The notes beneath the pieces are model-generated. The model was not told the DNA's origin, made no database searches, and was given only the letters and a program-made list of their open reading frames with translations. Both the position numbers and the translations under genes were made by a program. From positions 51,611 through 115,610 of the forward strand of contig NZ_BCFK01000028.1 in NCBI RefSeq assembly GCF_001417815.1: a stretch of 64,000 bases of DNA. Direction: 5' to 3'. Below, piece after piece: positions 7,035 to 20,286 of this stretch (position 1 is the stretch's first letter; each line of letters starts with the position of its first letter). Source of the stretch: Bifidobacterium aesculapii. GTDB lineage: Bacteria; Actinomycetota; Actinomycetes; Actinomycetales; Bifidobacteriaceae.

Positions 7035-8717
7035 TCACGATTCCTCCTGTTCTTCGATTCTGTTCCATCTTCTGCCATAGAGCGCCCGCCCGTCGGCGTT
7101 CAGGGAGACGACCGTATGGTCATCGATGATCTGCCGTGTCTTCTCGGAATACGACCCACGCTTGTCGAAGGCGATGAACACCTGCTTGTCCGTCGCGTCC
7201 GTCTTCGCATACAGCTTCATAATGGACTCGATCGGCTCGTCTCCGATGTTCTTCAGCAGCGTCGAATCATGAATGAGCACCGGAAGATCGGTATGCTCCA
7301 GAACCGTCATATCAAGGAGAACCACATCCTTCGCACGGGTGCCGGCACCGGTGTCTCGTTCGGTGCCGAACGTATACGACTGCTTCCCGTTCCGGGTCTC
7401 CGATATGCGTAGCTCGGGAGGATTGTTCCCCGTATCGACGGCGTCATTCAGCTGTTTCAACGCAGCGTTGATTGTGCCGGTCATTCCGCCGATGAGTTTC
7501 GGCCGTTGTACCTGTAGTTCCGCGGATGCCTCTTGCATCACCGCTTTCAGCTCCTCGGTCTTGTCCCAGGAGCCGATTTGCGCCTGCAACCGTTGGATGT
7601 TGCCATTCAGCTCTCCCGCCTTGTTCCACTCCTCGGTGCTCAACGTTCCGGTCTGCCCCATATCGGCGAGTTCGGTTCTCAATCGGTTGATTTGACTGTC
7701 AATGGAACCGATCATCAGCCGGTACTGTTCCTTCTGCGCGGAGAGCTCGTCACTGAGGATTTCAGCCAGTTTGTGATGGAACGCCTCTATCTCCTCGATT
7801 CGGCCGATGTCCGCATTCGGGAAAAACCGCAGCAAAGCTTCGATCTGCCGGACGTCGACATCGTGTCGAGTGATTCTTCCCCTGTCGATGATGCCGATTT
7901 TGGCGGTCAGCAGATCCCGCTTCTGCAGCAGCTCGTTGATTTCCGCTTTGAGTTCATTATTGCGTTCCGAGGCAGCGATGCCTTCTTCGAACAGCTTCTG
8001 GTCGGCCGCCAGTTTAAGGTCGTTGAGTTCTCGTTCGGCCGTCTCCAGCTGTGCTTGTGCGCTTCTGCGATCCCGTTTGCTTCTCAATGAGATGTAATCG
8101 GAAAGACCCAGCTTTGCCGCTCCGTGCATCACCTCGTATCGCTTCCGGGCATCCGAGACCGCCGTCTCCAATTGCTTGATGGGCTGGAAGACGCCGAACA
8201 TCTTCTCAAGCGTTCCCACAGCTTGAGCATCCGGTGTACGCGGCGAGACGCTTAATGGCTTCGCATAGTCGATCTCATGCGATGCACTCACACGAGCGAA
8301 CGGTCCCGCCGCCTCTCTCCAGGTCAGGTCCGGATCCTGGAATCCGGATTCCTCCTTCAGCGTCCTACAGAAATCCTCAACAGTCATGGATCCGGTAAGC
8401 ACCGAATACATGCTGTCCAAGTATTCCTTGACCAGATTCGGCTGAGCGGTGTCTCTGGAGAAATACCGCGTTCCGGAGGCGAACTCGTGAGCGAAGAAGA
8501 TCTCATGGTCACCCACGGCGTAATCCTTCACGGCATCCGATTTACTGAACGCCTTACCGCCGAAGGCATAATCGACGATCATCAGCAACGTCGATTTTCC
8601 GATGGAGTTCTCTGCCTGCTCGCCGCCGAGCACCACGTTCAACCCACCGTGGAACCGGATGTGCCGATCAGCACCGACATGAGCGGCGAATCGGCTCGAA
8701 TAGATCTCCTTAAGCAC
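7035..8717 (-). CDS. ABC-3C system ATPase (DUF2326 family, SMC/RecN-like)
   Basis: 560 residues. An atypical P-loop reads NSIGKST at about 37-43, after an N-terminal strand-rich part. A long coiled coil runs about 210-430 (Glu/Leu/Lys/Arg-rich). The Walker B-like strand DVVLLDMTVL and the LPVLIHDSTLL segment near 485 are followed by a C-terminal lobe ending in EEQEES. This is the layout of DUF2326 ATPases, which form the ABC component of three-component conflict systems. The GTG start overlaps the preceding middle-component gene by 8 bp. Likely role: a DNA- or nucleoprotein-sensing motor that gates the associated effector; inferred from family context. Confidence 0.88.
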   Translation of the reverse strand: MLKEIYSSRFAAHVGADRHIRFHGGLNVVLGGEQAENSIGKSTLLMIVDYAFGGKAFSKSDAVKDYAVGDHEIFFAHEFASGTRYFSRDTAQPNLVKEYLDSMYSVLTGSMTVEDFCRTLKEESGFQDPDLTWREAAGPFARVSASHEIDYAKPLSVSPRTPDAQAVGTLEKMFGVFQPIKQLETAVSDARKRYEVMHGAAKLGLSDYISLRSKRDRRSAQAQLETAERELNDLKLAADQKLFEEGIAASERNNELKAEINELLQKRDLLTAKIGIIDRGRITRHDVDVRQIEALLRFFPNADIGRIEEIEAFHHKLAEILSDELSAQKEQYRLMIGSIDSQINRLRTELADMGQTGTLSTEEWNKAGELNGNIQRLQAQIGSWDKTEELKAVMQEASAELQVQRPKLIGGMTGTINAALKQLNDAVDTGNNPPELRISETRNGKQSYTFGTERDTGAGTRAKDVVLLDMTVLEHTDLPVLIHDSTLLKNIGDEPIESIMKLYAKTDATDKQVFIAFDKRGSYSEKTRQIIDDHTVVSLNADGRALYGRRWNRIEEQEES

Positions 8718-8946
8718 GATGAATCACCTCTTTAGTTTCGTCAAGCTTCACTGCTCCGATTGCGAACAAGACCGTCAACGCGTCGATGACGGCTTCTGGA
8801 CTCTTTATTCCGGAAAGACACCGCAGATATAAATCGACGACGCCGATCCCCTCTTCCGGTATCAGCGAAAGAACCGGCACGAGATCAGCCAACGTCGACT
8901 CGGCGAAGGGTACAAGCTTACTGGGCAGGAGCACGAAACACCTCAC
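8710..8946 (-). CDS. ABC-3C middle component (probably MC6 type)
   Basis: 78 residues, GTG start. The N-terminal LLPSKLVPFAESTLA matches the LLP(S/T)K...ES pattern of small ABC-3C middle components; the rest is a small helical, winged-helix-like fold. Middle components are thought to bridge the ATPase and the CTD effector. The gene overlaps the CTD gene upstream by 29 bp and the ATPase gene downstream by 8 bp, tight coupling expected of a stoichiometric complex. A GTG at 8934 (VLLPSK) with GAGGTG upstream is an alternative start. Confidence 0.8.
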   Translation of the reverse strand: MRCFVLLPSKLVPFAESTLADLVPVLSLIPEEGIGVVDLYLRCLSGIKSPEAVIDALTVLFAIGAVKLDETKEVIHRA

Positions 8947-10066
8947 ATATCTGGACGAAATACGAGACGAGAATCGAAGCGGTACGCGACCGCGAATGAG
9001 TGCGATCAGCTATCCAATCGGAAAGATGGTCGAAAATCTCGGCTTGACTCAATCCCTGACCCTCATACTTCAGATATTTGGCATGCATCTGTGACAGCAG
9101 ATCATTAAACGACAATCGCTGGGTTTCCTCCAGCATTTTCATTCGCGCGGCGATGAACGGATAATACGAACTGACTGAATCGGTTATCTCACGGCAGAGT
9201 TCACCGTCTTCGGAGACCTTATCACGTATCGGTACGGGATTGCGCATCTGGATTTGCTGATGAGACGTGTCTTCAAAACCCAGTTCTCTGATATCATCCA
9301 GCAATTTCGCAAGTTCCTTTTCCAAGCTCAACGGAGTCAATAGACCTTCGAAATCCCGTTGCTTGGAAACAGCCTTCTTCTCGCTCCGCACTCGGTCGAT
9401 GTCACTCTTGCTTGGGTGGTGCTTGTATTTCGCCGCGCATGTCGGGCACATCACCACATAATCGTCAAGACCGTATGAGGATACGTCCGGATCAATGGGA
9501 AGAATCTCGTATACGGGTATACCATCCCCGCGCTTATCCGCTATCAGGGAAGCACTGCATTCCATGCAGAGCCCGGCACACTGCATGAGCAGAGCATCCT
9601 TGTTATCCGCGATGCCTCTCGCGTAGGCAATCTTGGCGGCTACGGATTCCGAGGTCAGTTTCTGACCGGCTTTTCGGGAAATCACAGTCAATGCGATTTT
9701 CACGCATCGCTCACCCAACTCGTCAAGATTCACCTTTGTCCCATATTCGGCAAGATTATCCACGATTCTCTGTTTGACCGGAATCGCCGCGGCATCGATC
9801 CGAATTATGAACTGGCCAAGATCCATGCATTCGTATATGGCATTGGCCAGCTTCTTTGTGAACGACCTATCATCTGAGGACATTTTGCGGAGGGTTTCCT
9901 GTGACGCCTGAGAAGGATCCGCAGCCGTGCCTATGCGATTCCCCGGAACTCTGGTGAGCATCGAAATGACCTCAGCCACCTGTTTGCCGGCAGATAGCTC
10001 TTTACCGATAAGAGGCCGAAGCGATTTCACCAAATCGCAGAATCTGGCATTCACCTCTCCGGTCAT
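8918..10066 (-). CDS. ABC-3C CTD protein with HNH-like zinc finger (putative effector)
   Basis: 382 residues from ATG 10066, which has AGGAG 6 nt upstream (a GTG two codons earlier is possible). Residues 1-160 are helical and unassigned. A CMEC pair at about 167-170 and a CPTC pair at about 207-210, followed by Lys/His residues, enclose a treble-clef of HNH-endonuclease spacing. The usual catalytic His/Asn positions seem to be replaced (EILPID and LDDYVVM). The last ~95 residues end in ILVSYFVQICEVF, the hallmark of ABC-3C C-terminal domains (probably CTD10) that dock on the middle component. First gene of the three-gene operon, divergent from the 10307 module. Confidence 0.82.
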   Translation of the reverse strand: MTGEVNARFCDLVKSLRPLIGKELSAGKQVAEVISMLTRVPGNRIGTAADPSQASQETLRKMSSDDRSFTKKLANAIYECMDLGQFIIRIDAAAIPVKQRIVDNLAEYGTKVNLDELGERCVKIALTVISRKAGQKLTSESVAAKIAYARGIADNKDALLMQCAGLCMECSASLIADKRGDGIPVYEILPIDPDVSSYGLDDYVVMCPTCAAKYKHHPSKSDIDRVRSEKKAVSKQRDFEGLLTPLSLEKELAKLLDDIRELGFEDTSHQQIQMRNPVPIRDKVSEDGELCREITDSVSSYYPFIAARMKMLEETQRLSFNDLLSQMHAKYLKYEGQGLSQAEIFDHLSDWIADRTHSRSRTASILVSYFVQICEVFRAPAQ

Positions 10067-17503: not shown

Positions 17504-17605
17504 CACGGGAGGAGCGACAATTCCGTGGGCGGCATTGCCCGCCCACGTTCCATCGGTCGAGACCCGTTGCGGTCTCCTCTCAGCCGCGCTCAGGCGGCTC
17601 CCGTG
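17504..17605 (-). ncRNA. TPP-like riboswitch (divergent)
   Basis: 102 nt upstream of ykoE. Closing stem P1 is a perfect 8 bp (CACGGGAG with CTCCCGTG). A P2-type stem GCCGC/GCGGC runs into the conserved CUGAGA, then a GAGACC/GGUCUC hairpin, GACCG and GAAC, and a GGGCGG-GCAAUGCC-GCCC stem corresponding to the usual GG-UAAUGCC part. The ACCUGAUC and GCGNAGGGA blocks of the consensus are altered, so ligand binding is less certain than the location suggests. Confidence 0.6.
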
Positions 17606-17752
17606 TCAGCTCCCACCATAAACGACGTAGCCGACGAGATGCCTTTCACGAAAGCGACACACTACCGCATCCGTGTATGGCGGACATGGAGCAACGACAC
17701 TATGTTTGACGGTATGTCATAGCTCATGATGACGATAGCAAAGGAGCATGAT

Positions 17753-17998
17753 ATGAATAAGAAGATACTGTCCGCATGCATTGTCGCATTGCTGACACTA
17801 GGAACGTGTTCCATTACGCAGACTTCCTATGCCGGAGAATCGACAATACGGACGCGCTGCGATTTCTATGATCACGGACAGTGCTACGACCACTGGATTC
17901 CGACCCGAGACTCCTGCTATCGAATTAGCGATAGAGGGGGCACACCTTGGCAGATCGCCGTGTGCGCAGCGAAATTCGGAATCGGCAGCCGAGGGTGA
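17753..17998 (+). CDS. Small secreted four-cysteine peptide
   Basis: 81 residues from ATG 17753, preceded by AAGGAG at 6-7 nt. Lys-rich start, hydrophobic core ILSACIVALLTLGTCSI and an SYA cleavage site around residue 31 make a signal peptide. The mature part (~50 residues) has four Cys in CDFYDHGQC, SCYR and AVCAAKFG contexts and is rich in aromatic, Asp and Arg residues. Unknown family. It could be a bacteriocin-like or signalling peptide; next to a small membrane protein, a second Cys peptide and a two-component system. Confidence 0.65.
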   Translation: MNKKILSACIVALLTLGTCSITQTSYAGESTIRTRCDFYDHGQCYDHWIPTRDSCYRISDRGGTPWQIAVCAAKFGIGSRG

Positions 17999-18002
17999 TT
18001 CC

Positions 18003-18203
18003 ATGAACGGTCTGGCCATCGCTTCAATCTCCACCTTGGTATTTACAGTCATCGCAATCGCATTCATCTCCATCCAACATCATCTGGATAAGAAGGCATC
18101 CAAACTGTCCAAGGGCACATCCGAAGATAGGATGCTGGCTGAAAACCTACACGATATCTCACACCAAATGGATAGCGGCAAATACCTTTATCGCCATCTA
18201 TGA
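18003..18203 (+). CDS. Small single-span membrane protein (66 aa)
   Basis: ATG 18003, four bases after the preceding stop, with GAGGG about 6 nt upstream. One membrane helix (LAIASISTLVFTVIAIAFI) followed by a charged cytoplasmic-type tail with Lys/Glu/Asp. Family not recognised. Immediate placement after the secreted peptide suggests a co-transcribed immunity or export helper; inference only. Confidence 0.6.
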   Translation: MNGLAIASISTLVFTVIAIAFISIQHHLDKKASKLSKGTSEDRMLAENLHDISHQMDSGKYLYRHL

Positions 18204-18273
18204 TGTCATTCATGACGATCATGTGACAAATGCCTGGTTCCTTTTCAAGTCTTTTAGCACAAGGAAAGGAACC
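18204..18273 (+). promoter_or_regulatory. Two dyad elements between the peptide genes
   Basis: 18204-18228 is a hyphenated dyad (TGTCA-tt-CATGA, 3-nt centre, TCATG-tg-ACA). 18236-18273 has 9-bp arms GGTTCCTTT and AAAGGAACC around a 20-nt loop. No T-run follows, so these look more like operator or mRNA structures than an intrinsic terminator. They lie 30-100 bp before the second peptide gene and the two-component genes. Confidence 0.4.
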
Positions 18274-18302
18274 TGGTATATTCAGGAAAGGGGATTGGAC
18301 TC

Positions 18303-18455
18303 ATGAAAATCACGGGCATGCTATTGGCGATGATTCTGGCGTTTCCCAGTTGCCCGGCAATTGTTTCCTTCACGGCGTCCAACGACGGAATACAACCATA
18401 TGCACAATGCATTCCCCTCCCATGGTGGCATTGTAGGCCAGTCCATAGGGGATGA
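18303..18455 (+). CDS. Small secreted two-cysteine peptide (50 aa)
   Basis: ATG 18303 with GGAAAGGGG about 9 nt upstream. Signal peptide MKITGMLLAMILAFPSCPAI and a likely cut near FTA, leaving about 25 residues, SNDGIQPYAQCIPLPWWHC and then RPVHRG. Two Cys flank IPLPWWH, a Pro/Trp hairpin typical of small bioactive peptides. Stop TGA overlaps an in-frame ATG of the response-regulator frame (ATGA, 18452-18455). Unknown family; plausible pheromone or bacteriocin for the adjoining sensor kinase. Confidence 0.55.
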   Translation: MKITGMLLAMILAFPSCPAIVSFTASNDGIQPYAQCIPLPWWHCRPVHRG

Positions 18456-18490
18456 CTAGGCGTGCAGCAAGATTAACGGATTCATACACG

Positions 18491-19129
18491 ATGTCATTTA
18501 ACACTGCGACGTCGATAGCCATCGTCGACAATGACACACGTTCTCTGGATTCCTTGTACCGGCTCTTAACCGAACGTCTACCGACAGCCCGTGTCATATG
18601 GATGGTCCAGTCAGCCAAAGAAGCGATGCCTCTGACCAAGTCGCACGCTCCGTCCTTATTGCTGCTGGACATGTCACTGGAAGGAGTCCAAGGGCCCAGC
18701 GCGTGCAGATTCATACGGAAACAGTCCCCCGACTTCCCCATTCTCGCGATGACGAGTTTCTCGCTGAACTTGTATGAAGCGAAAGCGAAAGCTGCCGGCG
18801 CACAGGGGCTGGCCAGTAAGAACACCGAAGACGGCATCATCACCGCCATCGACTCGGTGATTCGCAACGGCTCGATGGCGGGCTTCGAATCACGGCAACT
18901 CGCACACATCCGTCTAATGAACGAGACGGTTCACAATCAGCGGCTCACGTTGCGGGAGGAGGAAATCATCGACTTGTGCGCGGATGAAGGACTGCTCGAT
19001 ACCGAAATCGCCGGCAAACTCGGCATTTCAGAGGCGACCGTGCGTAAACACATGCAGCATATCATGCAGAAACTCGGAGCGCGAACGGCTCGTCAGGCGG
19101 TGGCGATATGGCTTTCACCACGTGGTTGA
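18491..19129 (+). CDS. NarL/LuxR-family response regulator
   Basis: About 212 residues. Receiver domain with acidic pair in IAIVDNDTRS, phospho-acceptor Asp in LLLLDMSLEG (about 60) and Lys in ASKNTEDG; C-terminal LuxR-type helix-turn-helix LTLREEEIIDLCADEGLLDT...ISEATVRKHM. ATG 18491 leaves the normal lead-in to the receiver; ATG 18452, overlapping the peptide stop, would allow translational coupling, and neither has a clear ribosome site. Its 3' end overlaps the kinase gene by 22 bp. Likely controls the peptide genes upstream. Confidence 0.88.
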   Translation: MSFNTATSIAIVDNDTRSLDSLYRLLTERLPTARVIWMVQSAKEAMPLTKSHAPSLLLLDMSLEGVQGPSACRFIRKQSPDFPILAMTSFSLNLYEAKAKAAGAQGLASKNTEDGIITAIDSVIRNGSMAGFESRQLAHIRLMNETVHNQRLTLREEEIIDLCADEGLLDTEIAGKLGISEATVRKHMQHIMQKLGARTARQAVAIWLSPRG

Positions 19130-20286
19130 ACCTCGGGAAGGCACCAACACCTTCGACTCCCCCGCTAAAAGTACGTATAGCCCTCTCATCCGCATTTTCG
19201 TCGTTGCTCATCATTCAATGGGCGTACAATCCCCCATCCGGCGGAATCGCATTGGCTCTCTCGCTCATGCAGGGGACTCTGCTAGCCAGTACCAGTATCC
19301 TGCCTCTGTCATCCTCCGTAGCGCTCATCGTCATCGACGGCCTGACGACGGTCTGTTCCAACGGCACGGGTCCCACGTCCACGTTCAGCGTGCTGTACGC
19401 GTTGGGATTGTTGTCATATATGACCTCGGACCGCATGGCGGCGATGCTGACCATCACGATGATCCTGCTGCAGGTGGTCTACACTGGACTCCCGAACGGT
19501 TGGAACGTCGACTTGTTCGTATTCGTATCCTTCATACCGTTCAGCGTCATGGCTTCGCTCGTCGGGCGATCGCTGCGTTGGCGAGAGGACGGATTCCTAC
19601 GACAGATGAAACTTGCCCAAGCGGAGGACAATCTACGTCAAGCGGAATTCACTGCGCATGCCGCCCAGCGCATGCATGACGCCGTCACCGGGGAATTGTC
19701 ACTCATCGCACGCATGGCCCAACATCATATCAGAGCAGGCAGCAACGATATCGACGATTGGCGTCAAATCAATGAGTCGGTGCTCAACGCGCTGGACAAT
19801 ACGCACAAGGTCGTCGATTCCCTCAATGAATGGGGCCAGGGCGTCCATGGCACGACATCCTCGGAGATGGAAACGTTTGCCAATCGCCTTCACCGAGTGT
19901 TGGACGACAACGACAGGCGCATAAACCGTCTCGGCTTCGAAGGGCGGAGCACCCTCAACATCGACGACGGTCCCGCCCCGATGAGCGAAGAGAGAATGAC
20001 CCTCTGCACTGGATTCATCGGCGAGCTCTACGCCAATATCATCAGACACGCAAAACGGGAGTCATATGAGGTTTCCGTCGTATGGAACGACAGCGGCATC
20101 GAAATCACCACGTCCAACGCATTGTCCGACGAGGAACTTCCACAACATGGACAGGGCATGAAGTATTACCGCCGTGAAATCGAGCGCATCAGCGGTACCT
20201 TCGTCACGGGGCAACTGAATGACGGTACATGGTATTCGTTCGCGGCCATTCCTCCGCAATCCCGTGGTCGGGACCAGCAAAGCTGA
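19108..20286 (+). CDS. Membrane sensor histidine kinase
   Basis: 392 residues. Five or six membrane helices (about 20-160, e.g. VALIVIDGLTTV, AAMLTITMILLQVV), a coiled linker, then a dimerisation helix with the likely phospho-acceptor His190 in RMHDAVTGELS. The ATPase half is short and shows an N-box GELYANIIRHAK and a G-box GQGMKYYR. It resembles the NarX/DesK class that partners LuxR-type regulators. Overlapped with the response regulator. The membrane part with little extracellular mass suits sensing of a small peptide or membrane stress. Confidence 0.87.
   Translation: MAFTTWLNLGKAPTPSTPPLKVRIALSSAFSSLLIIQWAYNPPSGGIALALSLMQGTLLASTSILPLSSSVALIVIDGLTTVCSNGTGPTSTFSVLYALGLLSYMTSDRMAAMLTITMILLQVVYTGLPNGWNVDLFVFVSFIPFSVMASLVGRSLRWREDGFLRQMKLAQAEDNLRQAEFTAHAAQRMHDAVTGELSLIARMAQHHIRAGSNDIDDWRQINESVLNALDNTHKVVDSLNEWGQGVHGTTSSEMETFANRLHRVLDDNDRRINRLGFEGRSTLNIDDGPAPMSEERMTLCTGFIGELYANIIRHAKRESYEVSVVWNDSGIEITTSNALSDEELPQHGQGMKYYRREIERISGTFVTGQLNDGTWYSFAAIPPQSRGRDQQS

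Follow-up and report, generated by a model that had tools for sequence, protein, structure and literature searches.

A candidate Trp-loop peptide pheromone encoded beside its own DesK-type histidine kinase in Bifidobacterium aesculapii

The stretch of DNA analysed here, called the window, comprises 64,000 nucleotides of the Bifidobacterium aesculapii genome (contig NZ_BCFK01000028.1). Positions 17753-20286 of the window hold a locus of five genes, all on the + strand, which is divided into two modules. Module B begins with the gene of a 50-residue precursor, a candidate pheromone (18303..18455), continues with a response regulator of 225 residues, made of a receiver and a LuxR-type helix-turn-helix (HTH) domain (18452..19129), and ends with a DesK-type histidine kinase of 392 residues, whose H-box is near residue 190 (19108..20286). 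The tetranucleotide ATGA is common to the peptide stop and the regulator start, and the end of the regulator gene overlaps the start of the kinase gene by 22 nt. From this gene order and overlap module B is predicted to be a tight operon. Module A precedes it and encodes an 81-residue precursor with a hydrophobic leader (17753..17998) and, 4 nt behind its stop, a 66-residue one-span membrane protein with a charged tail (18003..18203). The 99-nt gap between module A and the peptide frame contains an inverted repeat that may be an operator (arms 18230-18244 and 18265-18279, 87% complementary), and a weak promoter-like site with an extended -10 element on the + strand (TTAGCA, 17 nt, TATATT; 18254..18282).

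A first-pass annotation of the same DNA had described this layout, and a check of the open reading frames found all five frames in place, including the one-span protein followed by overlapping regulator and kinase genes. It had also noted a lower GC content than in the flanks, and the values are indeed 0.47-0.58 inside the locus versus 0.64-0.73 over the next 3 kb to either side, boundary segments excluded. The four and two cysteines that it ascribed to the secreted products are those behind the hydrophobic leaders; the whole precursors contain 6 and 3.

The 50-residue precursor carries the cysteine loop CIPLPWWHC (C-x7-C; 18408..18434). Judged by sequence, it belongs to an undescribed family, named in neither Pfam nor NCBIfam, with a hydrophobic leader, a spacer and a C-terminal cysteine loop, often C-P-x-x-L-x-W-L-C. 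The absence of a known family, which had been proposed at the outset, holds for these two databases, in which 21 peptides gave isolated weak matches only, judged to be chance.

Small frames with a leader and a cysteine loop were found beside about half of the kinases in a first survey of 30 kinase loci. A uniform rule was then applied, consisting of 38-100 residues, a hydrophobic leader, C-x5-10-C with Trp inside, and a tail of up to 12. It was satisfied within 1.2 kb of 33 of 92 non-redundant kinases, one of which (L139) looks spurious. There were 37 matches in 363 kb near kinases and 1 in 349 kb elsewhere, the former number counting a few peptides more than once owing to overlapping loci. 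The rule had been modelled on the first loci, which gives most weight to those surveyed later (L108-L167), where 15 of 62 kinases were positive (14 without L139). Addition of family-level loci and further loci from the same genome gave 40 positive kinases out of 122; 37 were left after L139, L185 and L197 had been dropped by eye as spurious, and 30 after removal of near-identical kinases. Four of the 37 pairs belong to two further Bifidobacteriaceae genera (L186, L196; L195, L179), and the B. aesculapii genome itself has a second pair (L200, loop CPHSINWIC). A scan of the DNA for C-x4-WW-x-C codons proved uninformative, as 111 of 112 genomes matched and many matches were also present in the backwards-read control.

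Gene order among the 37 pairs varies. In 15 the kinase lies tail to tail with the peptide on the opposite strand, 9 have the peptide>regulator>kinase order of the window, another 9 have peptide>kinase with the regulator elsewhere, and 1 has no regulator that could be found. The remaining 3 were classed as regulator>peptide>kinase, which is truly so for L032; L113 and L148 were put there because the mechanically derived regulator frame is overlong. The loop encloses 7 residues in 22 pairs, 9 in 11, 6 in 3 and 8 in 1. Six loci (L046, L049, L050, L052, L054 and L132) form a subclass with the loop C-x-x-W-x-H-A-L-G-x-C, or one close to it, at or near the C terminus, and in all of them the order is peptide>kinase, the regulator lying elsewhere. 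In two species (L237 and L239) a polytopic membrane protein, which from its appearance we take to be TraX-like, is encoded in the 1.5 kb flanking the peptide gene.

The pairing was recovered without reference to the kinases. Profile A5, built from 21 peptides that were picked by eye, most of them with a 7-residue loop and none of the HALG class, was run blind over 112 genomes of the genus and found 48 places at E<=1e-3. Of these, 46 adjoin an A1-type kinase or a regulator related to that of the window. Adjacency was taken by coordinates from the kinase search for G068:C3, G072:C12, G041 and G030, and L029 and L150 had already been covered in the first surveys; in two places (G021 and G010) the partner gene is only a fragment. 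The two misses are L241, on a 3.7-kb contig, and L247. Profile members account for 18 of the 48 places; 28 of the other 30 adjoin a partner, about 10 of these being, by eye, close orthologues of profile members. Of seven weaker matches (E >1e-3) examined, L250, L254 and L258 have a kinase next to them and L248, L249, L251 and L253 have none. At the level of the order, 5 of 297 genomes matched the peptide profile. The match outside the family (G387/L264) lies inside a frame that runs antisense to what is, by eye, a long pyruvate carboxylase-like gene, has no A1-type kinase in its 3.1 kb, and was judged to be chance. In a protein collection, 25 of 202 candidates, profile members among them, were relatives at E<1e-5, and the species named include B. 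adolescentis, B. catenulatum subsp. kashiwanohense, B. biavatii and B. tibiigranuli. Pairs set on a nearly identical leader, for example YIECPVIIQWLCDRL and YVECPVFLQWFCDLL, look like pherotypes.

The orthologous peptide frames are under purifying selection, which is strongest in the loop. In seven orthologue groups the pooled ratio of nonsynonymous to synonymous polymorphism (pN/pS) falls from 0.48 ahead of the loop to 0.25 from its first cysteine onward, in pairwise comparisons that are not independent of each other; the HALG group is an exception, its tail differing more than the other parts. Across 30 pairs, the distance between peptides is correlated with that between kinases (r 0.35 with the sensor and 0.37 with the catalytic part, p 0.0002 for both). 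The peptides thus travel with the kinases, although sensor-specific coevolution is not supported.

The core of the window kinase, comprising the dimerization and histidine phosphotransfer (DHp) domain and the catalytic domain, is of the DesK type in both sequence and fold, the catalytic domain being DesK/VraS-like. The window kinase itself matched no Pfam family, and 5 of 15 relatives matched the HisKA_3 model (best E 0.00025). Its AlphaFold2 model, with a predicted local distance difference test (pLDDT) score of 80.7, predicts six N-terminal membrane helices, the layout of a polytopic sensor. The solved structures of DesK-DesR resemble the kinase in the fold of the catalytic core, the part that was compared, and share the LuxR-type partner. 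DesK differs in being a thermosensor of membrane fluidity that is not known to have a peptide partner.

The arrangement of a peptide gene with kinase and regulator genes is that of a peptide-pheromone two-component system. The 50-residue gene probably encodes a Trp-loop peptide pheromone sensed by its own DesK-type kinase in a dedicated circuit, with an estimated probability of about 0.72. This reading is based on the gene order with its stop/start overlap, the family-wide pairing, the purifying selection, the identity of the kinase and regulator, and a gene of the disulfide-forming VKOR family in the same genome. The precursor would be exported by Sec and cleaved, and its loop would be closed by a disulfide outside the cell, which the VKOR gene makes plausible. 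The kinase of the same predicted operon would then sense the loop peptide and phosphorylate its LuxR-type regulator. The regulator, in turn, may activate neighbouring genes and the promoter of the peptide gene itself, with autoinduction through the inverted repeat at 18230-18279. Such a chain of events is likely by analogy with the logic of known peptide pheromones and given the gene pairing. The first-pass annotation had proposed a pheromone or bacteriocin circuit; its pheromone part is well supported for the 50-residue peptide, whose family tracks the kinase type across Bifidobacteriaceae.

Several observations weigh against this interpretation. Gene pairing is no proof of binding. The sensor fits the peptide distance no better than the catalytic part (partial r 0.10, p 0.09 versus 0.17, p 0.03). 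No peptide was recognised beside 59 of the 92 kinases, the syntenic G016 orthologue among them; the later profile search supplied one for a few, such as the kinase of G060. When the rule was relaxed on 57 peptide-negative loci, it returned six frames only, all judged spurious by eye. The genome contains a single copy of the inverted repeat, so that no wider regulon was found, and the promoter scan is at chance level, with 3 sites in the region versus 2.0 in shuffles. Finally, a natural-variant cluster of 87 member sequences of the B. adolescentis type (P0043) has Tyr in place of the second loop cysteine (WLYGK). One reading of this variant is a silent or altered pherotype.

The site between the permease and peptidase genes that flank the locus carries a related operon in four other genomes, G072, G016, G075 and G053. 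Conservation of the peptide frame in relatives, which the first-pass annotation had named as one condition of its proposal, is seen here, as an orthologue of the 50-residue peptide occupies the same site in G072 and homologues lie beside kinases in many genomes. The loop is different in each genome. In G016 (L064) the site has a regulator and a kinase and no recognised peptide, and this strain is possibly an eavesdropper or one that has lost its signal. The neighbouring genes change as well. They are module A in the window, small leader-bearing proteins in G072 and G016, and, in G075, exported-looking proteins together with the ATPase of an ATP-binding cassette (ABC) transporter (PF00005), the set in G053 being similar. 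Seven cargo proteins tested besides the ATPase had no Pfam family. The small leader-bearing proteins lacking a Pfam match (L063 10079-10624 and 11525-12034; L064 6259-6768) are candidate cargo. In gene content, the site looks like a core for signalling that can be combined with different sets of secreted cargo, which the core would control.

The search for the locus in other bifidobacteria, set beforehand as a check, showed that the 81/66-residue pair recurs in five further genomes of the genus. Strong matches of the 81-residue protein (E<1e-9) are present in 6 of 112 genomes, the B. aesculapii genome included, with 19 weaker matches (E 0.002-0.1) left out of this count, and a one-span frame of the 66-residue type directly follows the relative in all five others (6/6 with its own genome). 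A scan of genome contigs named B. tibiigranuli, B. myosotis, B. italicum and B. gallicum (G102, G052, G038, G032). Both matches among 297 genomes of the order fall inside the genus, and viral contigs contained no relative. In metagenomes, 20 of 510 candidates were relatives at E<=0.01, including one with 98% identity to the protein of the window. In alignment A4 (16 sequences; P0001, P0013, P0017, P0018 and P0019 were omitted as near-identical, truncated, fused or frame-shifted) the mature cysteines are invariant at three positions and nearly so at the fourth; the B. gallicum relative has Trp at the second.

Module A is a separate, patchily distributed Bifidobacterium pair, best seen as a cargo module of its own. 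A small exported-looking protein and a membrane protein that travel together as a two-gene unit have the form of a bacteriocin/immunity pair, and module A is plausibly a secreted four-cysteine bacteriocin with a one-span immunity protein. It is similar in this coupling to class II and Sec-dependent bacteriocins and differs in having no sequence or fold match to known ones. Foldseek found no PDB match for the model of the 81-residue protein (pLDDT 75.3). A profile search of the PDB returned only C-type lectins and a RING protein (E 0.19-0.46), and Pfam RING-finger matches (E 0.008-0.01) were under the cut-off; both results were judged to be chance. A role of the 81-residue protein as a pheromone was dropped because four of the five relatives have no such kinase in the 16 kb around them.

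It is also conceivable that all five genes form one bacteriocin locus, in which the 50-residue peptide and the kinase switch on an 81-residue bacteriocin and its 66-residue immunity protein. The adjacency of the genes on one strand agrees with this arrangement, as does the variable exported-looking cargo at the syntenic site. In B. tibiigranuli (G102/L059), the only relative with a kinase/regulator/loop-peptide set nearby, module A lies at about 7.8-8.3 kb, about 2-4 kb from the set, with the regulator from 10.4 kb, the kinase at 11.1-12.3 kb and the loop peptide CHAALWWWPWC at 12.3-12.4 kb. Between them, at 8558-9859, is an Amidase_6 protein (PF12671). In the other four genomes, however, no A1-type kinase or related regulator occurs in 16 kb around module A. 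The inverted repeat lies upstream of the peptide gene and not of module A, and no convincing operator common to the two was found. The single five-gene locus of the first-pass annotation is therefore weakened, since the pair exists without this operon in five other genomes; a single locus is a tentative alternative and on balance doubtful, and control of module A by the module B circuit is a guess.

The loop peptides might instead be antimicrobials used in attack or self-defence, short, Trp-rich and disulfide-closed, and the kinase would then sense a threat, either the peptide itself or damage to the envelope. LiaS/VraS-type kinases, which belong to the same broad family, sense such threats, and the catalytic domain of the window kinase is of that likeness. 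The Trp-rich loops with basic tails in many members, and the changing exported-looking cargo, would also suit such a function. Several loops are acidic or neutral, however, no immunity gene recurs (clustering of neighbours recovered flank genes and the overlapping parts of shared loci, and nothing else), and the tight coupling of one peptide to one kinase is better suited to a ligand, making an antimicrobial role unlikely. That the small protein is instead a one-span accessory subunit, which stays in the membrane and modulates the kinase, agrees with its single hydrophobic segment near the N terminus and its tight coupling to kinase or regulator genes, but is very improbable in view of the stronger selection on the C-terminal loop than on leader and spacer, the variability of the leader between members, and the plausible signal-peptidase sites (AYA, APA) seen by eye in several of them.

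The pheromone circuit proposed for module B is like the Agr (AgrD/AgrC) and Fsr systems of Firmicutes in its short precursor with a ring near the C terminus, its polytopic kinase receptor, the peptide gene beside kinase and regulator genes, and its variable pherotypes. It differs from them in that the ring would be a Cys-Cys disulfide, the leader is Sec-like, the kinase is DesK-type and the regulator is LuxR-type. No AgrD-family match to Pfam or NCBIfam was obtained among the 21 peptides, and there is no AgrB-type processing protease among the five locus genes, the rest of the genome not having been searched. The ComCDE, BlpCRH and plantaricin-type pheromones also form a peptide-kinase-regulator cluster, often in control of bacteriocins, but have double-glycine leaders, a dedicated ABC exporter and LytTR regulators, whereas module B has a hydrophobic leader, no exporter among the five genes of the locus and a LuxR-type regulator. 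None of the 21 peptides matched a ComC-type leader in Pfam, and the alignment has no conserved Gly-Gly.

The chances are evenly balanced that Bifidobacteriaceae possess a private peptide language, a quorum-sensing class distinct from Agr, ComC/Blp and RRNPP, in which hypervariable, Sec-exported, disulfide-closed Trp-loop pheromones, often more than one per genome and each with its own DesK-type six-helix kinase, govern swappable islands of secreted weapons. The open-access literature in PubMed Central (PMC) yielded no description of a bifidobacterial peptide pheromone; that scope excludes preprints and subscription papers, and the absence is no proof. Bifidobacteria are dominant early-life gut symbionts. 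If the proposal is true, these gut bacteria would have a peptide language of their own, and kinase-paired variable loop peptides, those of B. adolescentis and B. catenulatum subsp. kashiwanohense included, would make their cell-cell signalling testable with short synthetic peptides. The system could also yield a toolkit for inducible expression.

The genes flanking the locus are an ABC_cobalt-type permease (PF09819) upstream, divergent to it, and an M20-type peptidase, named by eye, downstream and convergent. The leader of the permease gene contains a thiamine pyrophosphate (TPP) riboswitch match (17505-17614, - strand) that falls short of the gathering score (37.4 bits against 54.3) and points to thiamine transport.
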